From contig NZ_JAGDFX010000009.1 of the NCBI RefSeq assembly GCF_017498065.1, forward strand, positions 62,001 through 126,000: a stretch of DNA of 64,000 bases, in the 5' to 3' direction. This document shows, in pieces, positions 4,888 through 63,400 of this stretch. Both the position numbers and the translations under genes were made by a program. The DNA is from Oceanisphaera pacifica (GTDB taxonomy: Bacteria; Pseudomonadota; Gammaproteobacteria; Enterobacterales; Aeromonadaceae). The notes beneath the pieces are model-generated. The model made no database searches, was not told where the DNA came from, and saw only the letters and a program-made list of their open reading frames with translations. Within the stretch, counting starts at the first letter, position 1. Each line of letters begins with the position of its first letter.

Positions 4888-5470
4888 GATCAGCTTGAAG
4901 CTGGAAGCTGGAAGCTGGAAGAGAAGACCTGGATTGCTTCGCTGCGCTCGCAATGACCCCAATGGCGTCATTGCGAGGAGTGCAACGACGCGGCAATCCA
5001 GTTAACAGATAGTAATAAGCTTGAAGCTAGAAGCCGGAAGTAAAAACAAAAATGCCTCTGTGTTTTTGCTTAGCTTACCGCTTCCAGCTCTCAGCTCTCA
5101 GCTCTCAGCTCTCAGCTTCCGGCTTTCTCTACGCTTTACGCTGAGCGCTGTACGAACAGCCAAAGCTGGTTTTATTGTTAACGTAAGGCGGTCAGCGTTA
5201 GACGTATAGCTTTATTTGGGATGGATTGCTTCGTGCCTTGCAATGACCCAATGTCGTCATTGCGAGGAGTGCAACGACGCGGCAATCTATGTAACAGGCA
5301 GTAATAAGCTTGAAGCTAGAAGCCGGAAGTAAAACCAAAAATAAAAACTGAAGGATGGATTGCTTCGCTTCGTTGCGCTCGCAATGACAAGTAAACTAGG
5401 GTTTGTGTTTAGTTTTTTTAACTTCTAGCTTCTAGCTTATAACTTTTCGCTTTGTTTTAAGGAGAATATT
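4888..5470. repeat. Intergenic repeat block between bamA and skp
   Basis: No gene is supported. A GGAAGCT heptamer array starts ~10 bp after the bamA stop (4896-4920). It is followed by an A palindrome pair (4931-4957 and 4968-5000, opposite orientations), a full B element (about 5010-5131) with four tandem CAGCTCT heptamers at 5086-5117, a C segment (5132-5212), another A pair (5221-5247 and 5255-5289), a left B arm (5300-5348), one more A copy (5354-5391) and a right B arm ending in a 'tttcgctttgttttaa' tail. That tail runs directly into the Shine-Dalgarno of skp (AAGGAG at 5459-5464), leaving no unique spacer. Confidence 0.85.
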
Positions 5471-14639: not shown

Positions 14640-15178
14640 GACACCTGAGAGCAGACAGCTCCGCTTCCTTGGGTCATTGCGAGGAGTGCAACGACGCGGC
14701 AATCCAGTTAACAGATAGTAATAAGCTTGAAGCTAGAAGCCGGAAGTAAAAACAAAAATGCCTCTGTGTTTTTGCTTAGCTTACCGCTTCTAGCTCTCAG
14801 CTTCCGGCTTTCTCTACGCTTTACGCTGAGCGCGGTACGAACAGCCAAAGCCGTTTTATTTTTAACGTATGGCGTACAGCTTTAGACGCATAGCCTTGGT
14901 TTGGAATGGATTGCCACGCTGCGCTCGCAATGACCTAGATGTCGTCATTGCGAGGAGTGCAACGACGCGGCAATCCAGTTAACAGATAGTAATAAGTTTG
15001 AAGTAAAACCGAAAATAAAGTACCTCAGTGTTTTAATCAGTTATTCCTAATCACGGTTTCTAATCTATAACCAAGATCGTATTTTTGGACTTACAGCTTA
15101 TATTTCCACTGATATAAATAAAAAAATAAAGTACCATCACCGCTGCTAATATTGTTATAGACAAGGATTGAGATACAA
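14640..15178. repeat. Intergenic block with a complete A-B-C-A' module (14672-14935)
   Basis: This is the cleanest example of the composite module: A palindrome at 14672-14705, the linker 'agttaacagatagtaa', B element at about 14722-14814, C segment at 14815-14900, then a shortened A palindrome in the opposite orientation at 14907-14935 so the outer ends are inverted. A further A copy and linker follow (14941-14995). From about 15010 to 15178 the DNA is AT-rich and apparently unique, and it should carry the promoter of the downstream protease gene. I see no gene in it. Confidence 0.85.
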
Positions 15179-57421: not shown

Positions 57422-58114
57422 TGCGCAGCGCCGAGCGCCCCTTCGGGAGAGCTGTCAGCCGTAAGCTATCAGCTGTCAGTTAAAGAAAGCGCTATGTCTA
57501 ACGCTGACCGCCGTACGTTAAAAATAAAACGGGTTTGACTTTTCGTATCGCATAAAGAAAGCCGGAAGCTGAGAGCTGGAAGCGGTAAGCTAAACAAAAA
57601 CACAGAGGCATTTTTGTTTTTACTTCTAGCTTCTAGCTTATTACTGTCTGTTCGATAGATTGCCGCGTCGCTGCGCTCCTCGCAATGACAACATTTAGGT
57701 CATTGCGAGGTACGAAGCAATCCATTCTAAAATAAAGCGCTATGTCTAACGCTGACCGCCGTACGTTAAAGATAAAACGGTTTGGGTTTTTCGTACCGCA
57801 TAAAGAAAGCCGGAAGCTGAGAGCTGGAAGCGGTAAGCTAAACAAAAACACAGAGGCATTTTTGTTTTTACTTCCGGCTTCTAGCTTCAAGCTTATTACT
57901 GTCTGTTCGATAGATTGCCGCGTCCTTGTCCTCCTCGCAATGACCCGAGAACAATAACGCCCAACGCTGTTATTTTGGATAGCAGGCTTTGCAAGCTTGG
58001 CAAGCCTTGATAAAGTAAATGTGGCTGCGTAAAAAAAAATCCCTAAATGTCAAACAAGACAAGGTGTTTCTTTTTATCGATTATATTGTTTTGTTAACAT
58101 GTGAGGATGTTGTC
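57422..58114. repeat. Repeat block between mlaA and aroF (two inverted modules)
   Basis: No gene. It starts with the 'ccccttcgggagagctgtcag' array right after the mlaA stop (57423-57480). Two inverted modules follow: C 57488-57550, B 57557-57645, A about 57657-57690; A' 57697-57725, C 57735-57800, B 57803-57898, A about 57910-57945. The last ~160 bp (57950-58114) look unique and AT-rich, ending with the aroF ribosome site; I looked for TyrR boxes (TGTAAA-N6-TTTACA) and found none convincing. Confidence 0.83.
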
Positions 58115-59185
58115 ATGCAAAAAGATACCCTAAATAATGTTCATATACGTTCCGAGAAAGTCATGATCACGCCTGCCGAGCTAAAAGCCAAGTTGCCCAT
58201 TTCTCAACCTGCACTCGATTTTATTGGTCAAGCTCGTGAAACCATATCAAATATTATTCAACGTAACGATCATCGCCTGCTGGTGATCTGTGGCCCTTGT
58301 TCTATTCATGATATAGACGCGGCCAAAGAATACGCCACTCGCCTTAAAAAATTGCATGATCAATATAGCGACAGCCTTTATATCGTAATGCGAGTTTATT
58401 TTGAAAAGCCTCGTACCACAGTGGGGTGGAAGGGCTTTATTAACGATCCGAATATAGATGGCACCTTCGACATTGAGCAAGGTCTACACAAAGCTCGCGA
58501 GCTATTGTGCTGGTTAGCAGAGCTTGAGCTGCCATTGGCTACCGAAGCGCTAGACCCCATTAGCCCGCAATATTTAGCAGAGCTGTTTTCTTGGTCGGCC
58601 ATTGGTGCTCGTACTACTGAGTCACAAACGCACCGTGAAATGGCCTCGGGCCTTTCTATGCCAGTGGGCTTTAAAAATGGCACAGACGGTAACTTAGGCA
58701 CGGCGATTAATGCGCTAAAAGCTGCCTCTGAGTCACACTCATTTATGGGCATTAACCAGCAAGGGCAGGTGGCGCTCTTGGTTACCCAAGGTAACCCCGA
58801 CGGCCATGTTATTTTACGCGGCGGTAAGCAGCCTAACTACGACTCTGTTAATGTATCTCTGGCGGAAAAAGCCATGACAGATGCCGGTCTGTCGGCAAGC
58901 CTAGTGGTAGATTGCAGCCATGGTAACTCTAATAAAGATTACAGCTTGCAACCTCTGGTGACTAAAAACGTAGTGCATCAAATTCAAGAAGGTAACCAGT
59001 CAATTTTAGGCATTATGCTGGAGTCACATTTGTTTGAAGGCAATCAGTCTAGCGAGCAGAATAACAGCGAAATGCGCTATGGGGTGTCTATTACCGATGC
59101 CTGCATTGATTGGGATACCACGGCTGAGTTACTGCAATCTTGCTATCAACAGTTAGCGGAGCCGTTAAAAGCTCGTATTCGTTAA
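58115..59185 (+). CDS. aroF: 3-deoxy-7-phosphoheptulonate (DAHP) synthase, AroF type
   Basis: This enzyme condenses phosphoenolpyruvate with erythrose 4-phosphate, the first step of the shikimate pathway. The start is ATG 58115 (GAGGA 7 nt upstream), giving MQKDTLNNVHIRSEKVMITP and 356 residues, the same length and start as the tyrosine-sensitive E. coli AroF. Catalytic blocks are CGPCSIHD, FEKPRTTVGWKG, GARTTESQTHREMASGL, GFKNGTDG and VDCSHGNSNKD. It is followed by tyrA, so the feedback type (Tyr) is supported by both context and sequence; allosteric residues were not checked one by one. Confidence 0.95.
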   Translation: MQKDTLNNVHIRSEKVMITPAELKAKLPISQPALDFIGQARETISNIIQRNDHRLLVICGPCSIHDIDAAKEYATRLKKLHDQYSDSLYIVMRVYFEKPRTTVGWKGFINDPNIDGTFDIEQGLHKARELLCWLAELELPLATEALDPISPQYLAELFSWSAIGARTTESQTHREMASGLSMPVGFKNGTDGNLGTAINALKAASESHSFMGINQQGQVALLVTQGNPDGHVILRGGKQPNYDSVNVSLAEKAMTDAGLSASLVVDCSHGNSNKDYSLQPLVTKNVVHQIQEGNQSILGIMLESHLFEGNQSSEQNNSEMRYGVSITDACIDWDTTAELLQSCYQQLAEPLKARIR

Positions 59186-59319: not shown

Positions 59320-60453
59320 ATGGTAGATGAATTAGCCGTCCTTAGGGATCAAATAGACGAAGTAGATCAAGAGTTGGTGGGCTTATTTGCCCGTCGCCTT
59401 AAGTTAGTGGCAGGTGTGGGAGAGGTAAAAAGCCGCCAAGGCGTGCCTATTTATGCCCCCGATCGAGAAGCCGCCATGTTGGCCAAACGCCGCGCCGAAG
59501 CCGTGGCTCAGGGCGTGCCTCCCGATTTAATTGAAGATGTATTGCGCCGTTTTATGCGTGAGTCTTACGCCAGTGAAAAAGACACCGGCTTTAAGTGCGT
59601 GAACCCTGAGCTTGGTAAAGTCGTGGTGGTGGGCGGTGCCGGGCAATTAGGCAGCCTATTTGCTCATTTGTTACGTTTGTCTGGCTATAGCGTTGATATT
59701 TTAGAAAAAGACGACTGGGCCGATGCCTCTAATAAAGTCGCAGATGCGGGCTTGGTGGTCGTAGCAGTACCCATAGACCAAACCGTGGCTGTCATTAAGC
59801 AATTACCCACCTTGCCTACAGACTGCTTATTAGTGGATTTAACCAGTATTAAAACTGAACCCTTAACCGCTATGTTGGCGGCGCACTCTGGGCCGGTATT
59901 GGGCTTACATCCTATGTTTGGTCCTGATGTGCCAAGCCTTGCCAAGCAAGTTATTATTTATAGTGAAGGCCGTGGCAGTGAGCAGTATGAATGGCTGCTG
60001 GCGCAAATGCGTATTTGGGGCGCTCGCTTACAAGCGGTGGATGCCCAAGAGCATGATCAAGCCATGAGCTTAGTGCAAGCGCTGCGCCACTTTACCAGCT
60101 TTGCCTATGGCGCACATTTATGTGCCGAACAAGCCGATATTTCGCAGCTCTTACGGTTAAGCTCTCCTATTTATCGGTTAGAGCTGGCCATGGTGGGGCG
60201 CTTATTTGCCCAAGATCCTGTGTTATATGCCGACATTATTTTGTCGTCACCGCGCAATCTTGAGATGATCCGCCGCTATCATACTCGTTTTGGTGAGTTA
60301 TTAACGCAGCTAGAGCAGGGCAAACGTGACGCTTTTGTTGAGCAGTTTGCCGAGGTGAGTGCGTTTTTTGGGGAGAATGCCGAGACGTTCTTAAAAGAAA
60401 GTCGCAGCCTATTGGCCCAAGCCAACGATAGCCGCCATTATGCGGATGAGTAA
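59320..60453 (+). CDS. tyrA: Bifunctional chorismate mutase/prephenate dehydrogenase TyrA (T-protein)
   Basis: This enzyme converts chorismate to prephenate and then to 4-hydroxyphenylpyruvate for tyrosine. The AroQ-type mutase is residues 1-~90 ([40 protein letters not shown]). The NAD-binding dehydrogenase follows from ~100 ([22 protein letters not shown]) with the active-site segment [16 protein letters not shown]. The 377-residue length fits the 373-residue E. coli protein. It lies 134 bp after aroF, as in the E. coli aroF-tyrA operon. Confidence 0.96.
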
Positions 60454-61222
60454 GAAGCGCCGAGCGCCCGGCGCCCAGCACCAAGCTTAAAGACAGTCCC
60501 TTTGGGGAGCTGTCAGCGGTAAGAAACAGGGATTGGTGATTAGGGACTCGTGATTAGCACACCGCGCTTGTCTGTCAGTGACTATTCCCTATTCACCGAT
60601 CCCTAATCCCCTGTATGCTGGATTGCCGCGTCGTTGCACTCCTCGCAATGACCCGAGAACAATGTTGAATGTTGAATTAACCAGACACTTAACACTGCTT
60701 TTGCCCTTACGCTGTCATTGCGAGCGCAGCGTGGCAATCCATTCTTCAGGCTCGTAGCGCCCTAAACATGGATTACTAGTATTGGTGATTAGGAAATAGT
60801 GATTAGAATTCCCTATTCACCCCCTAGTCTCCTGTAAAATTTATTCGACCTCTTTAGGCTGCACTATCGTTTTGGTCGATTGAAATCGACCCTACAACAC
60901 ATCAGAGCAAAACAAGCTGCCTGCAAAACCTAACCGCCGTACGTTAAAGATAAAACGGTTTTGGCTGTTCGTACCGCATAAAGAAAGCCGGAAGCTGAGA
61001 GCTGAAAGCGGTAAGCTAAACAAAAACACAGAGGCATTTTTGTTTTTACTTCCGGCTTCTAGCTTATTACTATCTGTTAAATGGATTGCCGCGTCGTTGC
61101 ACTCCTCGCAATGACCCAAGCACACTGTCTTATAAGCTTTGTGTCTGCTCTTACCATGAACAGTCTTTTTCAGATCTAATCCCTATTTTTCAGCGGGTTC
61201 CGCGGATTGTGTTGCTAAGTAT
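60454..61222. repeat. Repeat block between convergent tyrA and pheA
   Basis: No gene in 769 bp. It holds a short AGCT array (60497-60515), a CCCTAAT/GTGATTA pair (60525-60610), an A palindrome (about 60622-60653), an ATTCAAC piece, an A copy in the other orientation (60713-60741), a second CCCTAAT pair (60779-60832), a D variant (60838-60898), C and B segments in inverted order (about 60920-61075), an A palindrome (about 61081-61115) and an inverted H segment (61119-61205). 60838-61075 mirrors 48943-49206. No clear terminator for either convergent gene is visible. Confidence 0.83.
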
Positions 61223-63112
61223 TTAATCCCGATATAAGCGCTGTGCGAGTTGCGCGAGTGTTGACAGATTATCTTCTTCTAATACCGTCAAACAAAAGCC
61301 TTGTATACCGGCGCTTTTAAGGGCTAAGCCAAGCTCGACTAGCATATCGTTATTGGTATCTAGTTGGCTTAATAACGGAAGCGCAGAGGCTTGTTGTACT
61401 GCTAATAAGTCGGCTAACGGGCGGCCTTGAGCATCTAATAAGGCTAATTGGCGATTGCCCTCGCTCAGTACCGTCTCTATATCGGTGAGGGTGTCGCTTA
61501 CCTTATCGTTTAACGGCAATAACACCGGCCTTGTGCTGCGCCCAGCGGCCCAAAGTAGCTCGTCTCGTTTGCCTTCAATGGGTTGCAGTAAGATTAAGTC
61601 TAGTGACTCTGCCGCACGCTGTAATTGCTCGGGGGTGTGCACCGGCGCCAGAGTAGCCAAGTCAAATTGCTGGGCCACTTCGCGCAGTTGCAACAAGCGT
61701 GCTTGTTCAAATTGGCTGTCTCCTTGGCCAAAGCAAGGTGCGCCTAATACTTGGCCCCCTTGCTCTTTTACTTGACGGGCCATTTCTTGTAGCCCTTGGC
61801 GTTCTGGCCATTGCTCTAATAATGTAGCCAGTAATGGCTCTTGCTGGCTTAAGCTAAAGCGCCCGACTTGCAGCATTGGCGTTGCGGCTTTAGCGGCGGG
61901 TAGCTCTGCCGAGGGCTGTGCTTTGGGTGATGAAGCTTGGGGCTGGGTAAGTGCCTTAGATGACAGTCGGGTTGGGGCCACTTCAGCGCTGGGGTAGCAG
62001 CCTAATACTTTAATAAAGCTAACACTGTCTTTGAGCTCATTGAGTGCAGCCTGCATATGTGAGCTATTCACATTGGCGGCCACATCTACATAGAACATTT
62101 CTTCCCATGGGTTACCAATAATAGGGCGCGACTCTAGCTTGGTCATGGGAATATCATGGTTGCGCAGTATCAGCAGGGTTTCGACTAAGGCACCGCTTTG
62201 CTGACCGGTTGACATAATAAAGCTAGTTTTTGCCGGAATTTGCTCCGCCACTTCAACGGGTTTGCGCGCCACCACAATAAAGCGAGTCATGTTTTTCTTT
62301 TGATTGGCAAGCCCAGTTACCAAGGGTTTAAGGCCGTGCAAAGCGCCACCATCGGCACTGCCCATGGCACCAATATCATCGCGTTGTTGCTTGGCAACCA
62401 GCTCCATGGCATTAGAAGAAGCGGCGCAAAACTCCACCTTTACTTGCGGTAAAGTTTTTAAATACTGTGAGCATTGCTGATAAACCTGAGGGTGGGTATA
62501 TAAGGTTTTTAACTTGCTTACATCTGTGTCTGTGGCCACTAACAAGCAGTGCTCTATGGGTTGGGTGAGCTCACCCACAATAGACAGGTTAGTGTGCTGC
62601 ATTAAGTCAAACACATCGTTAATGGCGCCTGAGCTGGTGTTTTCTATGGGTAATACCCCATATTGCGCTTGGCCCGATTCCACAGTATCAAAAATTTGCT
62701 GAAAGGTGTCGCAGTTATGCTCAACAAGCTGGGCGTTAAAGCGGTGTAAGTATTTGCGAGCCGCCATATTTGAATAAGAGCCACGCAAGCCTAAAAAGGC
62801 CACGCTAATGGCGGGCACTTTATCTTGTGGATTCAACAAATCTTGTAGCAAGGCTTGTTGCGACAAGACTGAGTCTTCAATAATGGTGTGATAAATTTGC
62901 GTCACATAATGAGCGTCTAAGCCTAGGGTGCGGCCTTGATTAATTAATGCCACTAGCAAAGCCTCTTCACGCTCTTGATCGCGAATAGGACGCGGGTTTT
63001 GTAGCTTGCTACGCGCAACATCCAAACTTAAGTCTTTGCGCTTGGCCAACAAAGACAACAGCTCTTTATCTAGGCTGCTAATATGGCTTCTAATTTCATC
63101 CAAATTAATCAA
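61223..63112 (-). CDS. pheA: Chorismate mutase/prephenate dehydratase PheA with a C-terminal DAHP-synthase-like extension
   Basis: This P-protein takes chorismate to phenylpyruvate for phenylalanine. I start it at TTG 63112 (AAGGA 8 nt upstream, MINLDEIRSHISSLDKEL), giving 629 residues; a TTG at 63151 lies within the attenuator stem and is rejected. An AroQ mutase (1-~90), a prephenate dehydratase (~100-285, GLRGSYSNMAARKYL, PIENTSSGAINDVFDLM, KKNMTRFIV) and an ACT domain (~295-375, with the Phe-binding ESRPIIGNPWEEMFYVD) are intact. The E. coli protein ends there (386). Here a Pro/Ala-rich linker (~379-412) leads to ~217 extra residues resembling a DAHP synthase barrel with its catalytic motifs lost. 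Convergent with aroF-tyrA, as in E. coli. Confidence 0.94.
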   Translation of the reverse strand: MINLDEIRSHISSLDKELLSLLAKRKDLSLDVARSKLQNPRPIRDQEREEALLVALINQGRTLGLDAHYVTQIYHTIIEDSVLSQQALLQDLLNPQDKVPAISVAFLGLRGSYSNMAARKYLHRFNAQLVEHNCDTFQQIFDTVESGQAQYGVLPIENTSSGAINDVFDLMQHTNLSIVGELTQPIEHCLLVATDTDVSKLKTLYTHPQVYQQCSQYLKTLPQVKVEFCAASSNAMELVAKQQRDDIGAMGSADGGALHGLKPLVTGLANQKKNMTRFIVVARKPVEVAEQIPAKTSFIMSTGQQSGALVETLLILRNHDIPMTKLESRPIIGNPWEEMFYVDVAANVNSSHMQAALNELKDSVSFIKVLGCYPSAEVAPTRLSSKALTQPQASSPKAQPSAELPAAKAATPMLQVGRFSLSQQEPLLATLLEQWPERQGLQEMARQVKEQGGQVLGAPCFGQGDSQFEQARLLQLREVAQQFDLATLAPVHTPEQLQRAAESLDLILLQPIEGKRDELLWAAGRSTRPVLLPLNDKVSDTLTDIETVLSEGNRQLALLDAQGRPLADLLAVQQASALPLLSQLDTNNDMLVELGLALKSAGIQGFCLTVLEEDNLSTLAQLAQRLYRD

Positions 63113-63135
63113 TTGGGCTTTCCTTAATGACCTAA

Positions 63136-63162
63136 TAAAAAAGCCTCCCAATGGAAGGCTTA
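63136..63162 (-). terminator. Attenuator terminator in the pheA leader
   Basis: On the minus strand AGCCTTCC and GGGAGGCT pair (one G-U) around an ATTG loop and are followed by TTTTTT. It sits 24 nt before the chosen pheA start and ~70 nt after the pheL stop. An upstream segment TCTCCCAA (63215-63208, minus strand) is complementary to the 3' arm TTGGGAGG (63151-63144) and could form the competing antiterminator. Confidence 0.85.
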
Positions 63163-63229
63163 TCTGTTTGTCTTTCGCTTACTTACTGCCTGAGTCGCGC
63201 CTGTTTATTGGGAGACAAAAAGCGGAGCG

Positions 63230-63253
63230 CTAAAATGAGTGAAAGAAAAACAT
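63230..63253 (-). CDS. pheL: Phenylalanine leader peptide PheL
   Basis: An ATG followed by UUU UUC UUU then His, Ser, Phe and TAG: a seven-residue peptide MFFFHSF with four Phe. It lies between raiA and pheA, where pheL is found in E. coli, and is followed by a terminator and a competing pairing segment. A ribosome stalled on the Phe codons would leave the TCTCCCAA segment free (antitermination). One that reaches the stop codon, ~15 nt before that segment, would mask it and allow termination. The ribosome site is weak (TTAAG). Too short for normal gene finders. Confidence 0.78.
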   Translation of the reverse strand: MFFFHSF

Positions 63254-63400
63254 CTTAACAGAGGCAGTGACACCTGCGCTTATTGCATACCATGACCCAA
63301 GAAGCAGCTACACTGACAAGCCTTTAATACGTTACATCAAAACTAGCATAAATTGATATGAAACGCAGCGCTAAACTCATGCTCCAATGCTGGGTTGCCA

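Follow-up and report, generated by a model that had tools for sequence, protein, structure and literature searches.

To our knowledge, the enzyme at the phenylalanine branch point is normally a protein separate from the one that guards the entry to the whole aromatic pathway. DAHP synthases (DAHPS) of class I-beta carry the catalytic and metal motifs GPCS, KPR, LKRG, ERG and DPSH, and those of the Thermotoga maritima type (PDB 1rzm/1vr6) have an N-terminal ferredoxin-like regulatory domain. Fusions of DAHPS with chorismate mutase are found in Bacillus, Listeria and Geobacillus (PDB 3nvt, 5j6f); in these the mutase adjoins the catalytic barrel and, as described in passages of PMC5526877, regulates it. 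A protein closer to the one analysed here was recorded in Shewanella oneidensis by Song et al. 2005 (PMC1173090), who listed an aroA-I-beta 'pseudogene' fused to aroQ-pheA. In the parts of that paper that concern it, the fusion occupies one sentence and a table entry, and is termed bizarre and a pseudogene. Among the matches listed for the open-access literature (subscription journals are mostly outside its scope), we found neither a functional study of such a tail nor any description of a trifunctional CM-PDT-DAHPS protein.

The window, i.e., the whole stretch of 64,000 nucleotides of Oceanisphaera pacifica that was analysed, encodes pheA on the minus strand (61223..63151), with an AroQ chorismate mutase, a prephenate dehydratase, an ACT part, a linker and a pseudo-DAHPS barrel in one frame of 642 residues. 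The mutase domain (residues 20-99; 62855..63094, minus) is matched by Pfam CM_2 (66.2 bits, cut-off 27) and by TIGR01797 (88.6 bits, cut-off 73.7), and the catalytic domain of the dehydratase (residues 117-297; 62261..62803, minus) by Pfam PDT (179.9 bits, cut-off 25.2). Both Pfam scores are in keeping with a bifunctional P-protein (chorismate mutase/prephenate dehydratase). The complete model of the bifunctional P-protein, NF007910, is matched by residues 16-394, at 552.2 bits against a cut-off of 577 and thus below the equivalog threshold. The ACT regulatory part (residues 298-394; 61970..62260, minus) lies within this match. ACT domain models gave no match to PheA; we presume the border of the domain, and take the GALV and ESRP motifs within it to be those that bind phenylalanine. 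A fast-evolving Pro/Ala-rich linker follows (residues 395-426; 61874..61969, minus), and then the degenerate barrel (residues 427-642; 61226..61873, minus). The frame does extend beyond the ACT part as initially annotated, with 217 codons and a stop at 61223-61876.

The mechanically assigned TTG start at 63151 overlaps a phenylalanine leader/attenuator upstream of pheA (63134..63266, minus), which is matched by RF01859 with 44.9 bits (E 3e-5), under the gathering score of 55. The leader peptide, read from the letters, is MFFFHSF. With such a leader just upstream, pheA is probably under ordinary phenylalanine attenuation, and its true start probably lies at about 63109-63112, which gives the 629 residues assumed in the initial annotation.

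The tail that PheA carries behind its ACT part is a fused class I-beta DAHP synthase barrel. Searched alone, it was matched by PRK12595 (E 1.3e-8) and by TIGR01361 (E 1.7e-6, although the 27.6 bits are far under the curated cut-off of 267.75), and Pfam DAHP_synth_1 scored 14.8 bits (E 0.014), under its cut-off of 25.5. The profile of the tails of the genus matched the DAHP synthase of PDB entry 5j6f at E 9.5e-18, the match spanning positions 30-215 of the 219 in the profile. The likeness to class I-beta enzymes that had been read from a few segments is thus far above chance in both single-sequence and profile comparisons. Structure prediction also gave a (beta/alpha)8 barrel of the DAHPS type. 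The usable model came from a 34-row alignment of the window's tail, the tail of one other locus (L002) and 32 class I-beta synthases from viral-contig records (55 loci found, 37 checked, 35 without a stop, 32 used); a model from a two-row alignment (pLDDT 43.3, pTM 0.36) was discarded. Free class I-beta enzymes have an N-terminal domain that is missing from the fused form, where the barrel follows the ACT part of PheA and the linker. Separately, relatives of class I-beta DAHP synthases are encoded in 55 viral-labelled records of IMG/VR (L141-L195).

The catalytic motifs were read from an alignment of 51 fusions (11 from the window's genus, L002 included) with 14 free synthases. All are lost in the window, as had been noted: GPCS is replaced by LLEQ, KPRT by GQGD, LLKRG by LLPLN and CERG by LDAQ, and DPSH is absent. 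The earlier placing of GPCS was slightly too early, since the segment chosen, QVGRFSLSQQEP (tail residues 8-19), forms the N-terminal hairpin before strand 1, and the site corresponds to LLEQ at tail residues 24-27 when more sequences are aligned. A working DAHP synthase is plausible for four relatives of this protein (see below). In the window, with none of the five motifs left and a TIGR01361 score about a tenth of the cut-off, such activity is very unlikely to judge by the residues, and we give this reading hardly any chance. What the initial annotation had proposed, a degenerate and non-catalytic DAHPS-type barrel retained as a third module of PheA in this protein and in relatives, is supported at the level of sequence.

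To describe the distribution of the tail, its profile was searched against 247 genomes of the order, and matches were found in 71. Of these matches, 46 lie in frames of at least 642 aa that in every case also encode the dehydratase, 14 in free-standing frames (344-416 aa) that do not, and 11 in frames of 283-314 aa, the size of KDO8P synthases; we checked all the fused frames, all the free-standing ones and three of the last 11. A further fusion, in G096, escaped the profile search and came to light through the length of its frame. The count for the order is therefore a lower bound of at least 47. Every genome of the window's genus carries the tail, without a stop within the match (23 of 23), and the single genome of another genus of the family (G002) has it in intact form. 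It was found in none of the 37 genomes of three other genera of the family; PheA frames of these genera (g3, g4, g5) have 388-449 aa in 37 of 38 cases, the remaining one being a fragment. Since a PheA without tail is normal in such close relatives, the tail is dispensable on the evolutionary scale. Families f16 and f21 include both tail-less and fused PheA. The mention of longer PheA proteins in some Shewanella/Aeromonas relatives fits the entry of 2005 for S. oneidensis (PMC1173090), and does not fit the three genera of the window's own family. Among 370 genomes of the class searched with profile A3, two long frames (994 and 592 aa) were fetched from the matches listed and rejected as fusions: they are due to a masked run of N and to a read-through frame ahead of free-standing synthases. 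Several more frames of over 450 aa occur outside the order among the matches listed, the longest with 704 aa (G364, 209 bits). Plasmid sequences gave no match to the tail, and neither did viral contigs, in which four matches to PheA were confined to residues 3-393.

The fused barrels form a graded series. Four of the 51 fusions (L089, L097, L105, L057) have GPCS, KPRT, LKRG, CERG and DPSH all present, and score 385-391 bits with TIGR01361, above its cut-off. Matches to chorismate mutase and dehydratase share one frame with the barrel in all four; two pass TIGR01797, three pass the dehydratase model NF008865 and none passes NF007910. DAHP synthase activity of these four proteins is plausible from their sequences. 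The cut-off itself is no proof of activity, because another fusion (L092) just passes it (270.3 bits) without GPCS and KPR. The catalytic Lys is kept in six of the 51 fusions and replaced by Glu in 32. The scores of PF00793 in the sampled genomes grade in the same manner, from 270, 265, 264 and 258 bits in the genomes of the intact four (G131, G114, G002, G074) through 203, 190, 153, 60, 51, 50 and 35 down to 20 (G017), and the window's tail is not among the reported matches. All four genomes with intact fusions carry additional PF00793 genes.

In a tree of the barrels, the 18 free synthases form a clade (100/100) and all 47 fusions fall outside it, which is in line with a single fusion event. 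The four intact relatives still resemble in sequence what was probably the ancestral form, a trifunctional CM-PDT-ACT-DAHPS protein. There PheA's ACT domain would have occupied the place that the free class I-beta synthases give to an N-terminal regulatory domain of their own. The number of catalytic losses is answered differently by the two trees. In that of the barrels, a branch (98/93) sets the degenerate ones apart, and a grouping of the barrels of the window's genus with that of G002, an intact one of the same family, is rejected (p-AU 0.012), as is the corresponding grouping in f15 (0.016). This tree favours one catalytic loss or an exchange of barrels, with long, fast branches involved. 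In the tree of the PheA core, the window's family as a clade is not rejected (p-AU 0.60, the very long row L118 left out), and neither are the four intact fusions as one clade (p-AU 0.15). The gene raiA adjoins pheA in the window and in seven of 12 other fused loci (G002, G080, G144, G070, G065, G072, G088), which argues for vertical descent at those loci. It is absent beside pheA in G131, G074, G114, G096 and G286, hence in three of the four intact loci.

The tail lacks catalytic and metal motifs, and yet it is under purifying selection. When six close pairs of the genus were pooled and the crude NG86 method applied, dN/dS was 0.209 in the tail (bootstrap 0.169-0.249), 0.414 in the linker, taken as the 35 aa that follow the ACT part (0.274-0.655), and 0.058 in the dehydratase/ACT core (0.040-0.082). 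Single pairs of the genus range from 0.06 to 0.57 in the tail among the 14 closest, so some tails evolve fast. In f10 the tail had 0.020 and the linker 0.092, at saturated sites; in f6, where sites are also saturated, tail (0.086) and linker (0.084) did not differ; one pair of f13 gave 0.080 for the tail. Pseudogene status of the genus tail, with relaxed selection or a disrupted frame, is rejected by these values and by the 23 stop-free tails. This corrects the label for the window's genus; the test covered this genus and the pairs of f6, f10 and f13. One genome of the genus (G052, locus L012) has a pheA split upstream of the tail into overlapping frames at 257-1240 and 1045-2154 on the plus strand, which is either an assembly error or a real frameshift.

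We then compared the conservation of the two faces of the barrel, with loops set by predicted strands and helices and only the columns filled in the window scored. Near-duplicates (L069, L071, L094, L096, L101, L077, L079), odd rows of f6 (L070, L104), families f8, f11, f13 and f21 and one row of f15 (L131) were left out. Mean entropies of active-site and bottom loops were 0.28 and 0.94 in the 18 free synthases, and 0.18 and 0.40 in the four intact fusions. They were 1.00 and 0.36 in f10 (8 rows), 1.79 and 0.85 in f6 (15 rows), and 1.66 and 0.38 in the window's genus (11 rows; 1.77 and 0.42 with 21 rows). In all three degenerate groups the bottom loops are below the top ones (p <=0.0004, in permutations that ignore relatedness). 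Given the predicted loop borders, conservation is thus reversed from the active-site face to the opposite one in the degenerate groups tested. Turns at the bottom of TIM barrels generally aid folding, and conservation there may reflect stability only, but bottom turns are not special in the free synthases, which speaks to some degree against it. The ratio of bottom-loop to helix entropy is 0.35-0.58 in the four fused groups tested and 0.96 in the free synthases; the bottom loops are more conserved than the helices with p 0.026 in the intact four and <=0.0003 in the other fused groups, compared with 0.44 in the free enzymes. Sets of four random free synthases from different families gave ratios of 0.75-1.06 (5-95%), against 0.58 in the intact four. 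Besides TRP and FDL, the bottom face includes a GNxQ turn before strand 6 (GNRQ in the window, 61448..61459, minus), present in all 47 fusions after removal of near-duplicates (GNQQ in 42). A Gln at this site occurs in three of the 18 free synthases of the order and in one of 32 synthases of viral contigs. The turn may have been inherited from the founder of the fusion.

The opposite trend at the mouth of the barrel bears on the suggestion that the tail binds pathway ligands in its old active site. In such a sensor, the mouth would bind a pathway metabolite or phosphate and signal to PheA, and a few mouth residues do persist in f6 and f10 (the Arg of LERN, parts of the CERG stretch). In the window's genus, however, no part of the tail varies more than the mouth loops. 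In each of the 11 rows two of these loops have lost residues (6 down to 4, and 15 down to 5), as has a third in 10 of the rows (9 down to 5 or 6), and all five motifs are gone in the window. The suggestion finds little support in these data, and we regard it as highly improbable.

The reading that we prefer, and to which we give about an even chance, is that of a structural pseudoenzyme module acting in cis on PheA. The pseudo-barrel would fold and pack via its bottom (N-terminal) face, which we infer to contact either the other domains of its own chain or another chain of PheA. This packing would steady or tune the assembly, and hence the phenylalanine feedback of chorismate mutase and prephenate dehydratase, and the old active site would bind no substrates. 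The main rival is a passive relic, a ballast barrel selected only to fold and to keep PheA from aggregating while it slowly shrinks towards loss. It would account for the absence of the tail in sister genera, for the co-occurrence of both forms of PheA in f16 and f21, for a genus tail dN/dS 3-4 times that of the core, for the equal constraint of tail and linker in f6, and for the shortened active-site loops. It fits poorly with a genus tail twice as constrained as the linker, with the very low value of f10, with the persistence of the tail in every genus genome searched and with the selective conservation of one face. We consider the relic less likely, but far from remote.

The neighbourhood of pheA had suggested a third possibility, a partnership in trans: by docking onto a catalytic DAHP synthase, either AroF or a different one, the pseudo-barrel would couple the regulation of the first step to that of the phenylalanine branch. 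Cross-regulation between DAHPS and chorismate mutase is documented, as in the Mycobacterium complex (Sasso 2009 and others, as cited in PMC10520331 and PMC5526877). The window also encodes, beside pheA and on the plus strand, an intact aroF-type class I-alpha DAHP synthase (58019..59185; TIGR00034, 507 bits) and tyrA, a chorismate mutase/prephenate dehydrogenase (59320..60453; NF008400, 611 bits), and aroF-tyrA lies within 16 kb of pheA in four of 12 fused loci (G070, G065, G072, G088). In the other eight loci examined, no match to aroF or tyrA was found near pheA. Three genes of the genome exceed the PF00793 cut-off: aroF, a second DAHP synthase that is also of class I-alpha (TIGR00034, 564 bits), and a KDO8P synthase. 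The tail derives from the other class, and no class I-beta partner was thus found in the genome. Pyrococcus I181, which the title of PDB 4c1l marks as an interface residue, belongs by our count in the alignment to a stretch lying in the loop that the genus has cut from 15 to 5 residues. A partnership with the adjacent AroF, as first proposed, therefore has little in its favour, and we judge any partnership of this kind improbable. The spacer between tyrA and pheA contains two copies of a 30-bp interspersed repeat (TTGCGAGGAGTGCAACGACGCGGCAATCCA, <=3 mismatches), which has 16 copies in the window for 0 expected by chance (e.g., 4971-5000, 14677-14706, 60619-60648, 61082-61111).

In the fusion, the phenylalanine branch-point enzyme shares one chain with the enzyme that controls entry to the aromatic pathway as a whole. 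Its relatives show a range of stages: at one end all three enzymes seem to work, and at the other the barrel is hollowed out and still under selection. We tentatively suggest, as a possible though not the probable course, that the trifunctional enzyme arose once and persists in few lineages, and that in most others, perhaps repeatedly, the DAHPS part became a structural or allosteric domain of PheA as selection switched faces. If true, the series would be a living record of a regulatory pseudoenzyme in the making. It makes testable, with ordinary laboratory strains, what role a metabolic pseudoenzyme has after its chemistry is lost, and which face bears the new function. ACT control was reportedly transferred to a DAHPS barrel by engineering, in a chimeric DAH7PS (PDB 4grs), and the fusions suggest a natural case of such control.

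Compared with the known systems, the window's PheA differs from the Thermotoga maritima type in that the active site of its barrel is gone, the preceding domain is the ACT domain of a dehydratase, and chorismate mutase and dehydratase lie further upstream. The DAHPS-chorismate mutase fusions likewise combine a class I-beta barrel and AroQ in one chain, but here the dehydratase and ACT part stand between the two and the motifs are lost, so that the protein does not belong with these enzymes. With respect to the bifunctional P-protein (PRK10622/NF007910), whose whole model it matches, it is about 250 residues longer. The fusion of S. oneidensis, as far as the entry in PMC1173090 describes it, has the same domain order and the same class I-beta origin. 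Beyond that record, the present analysis adds the selection on the tail, its distribution, a graded series with intact-looking members, and a constraint specific to one face of the barrel.
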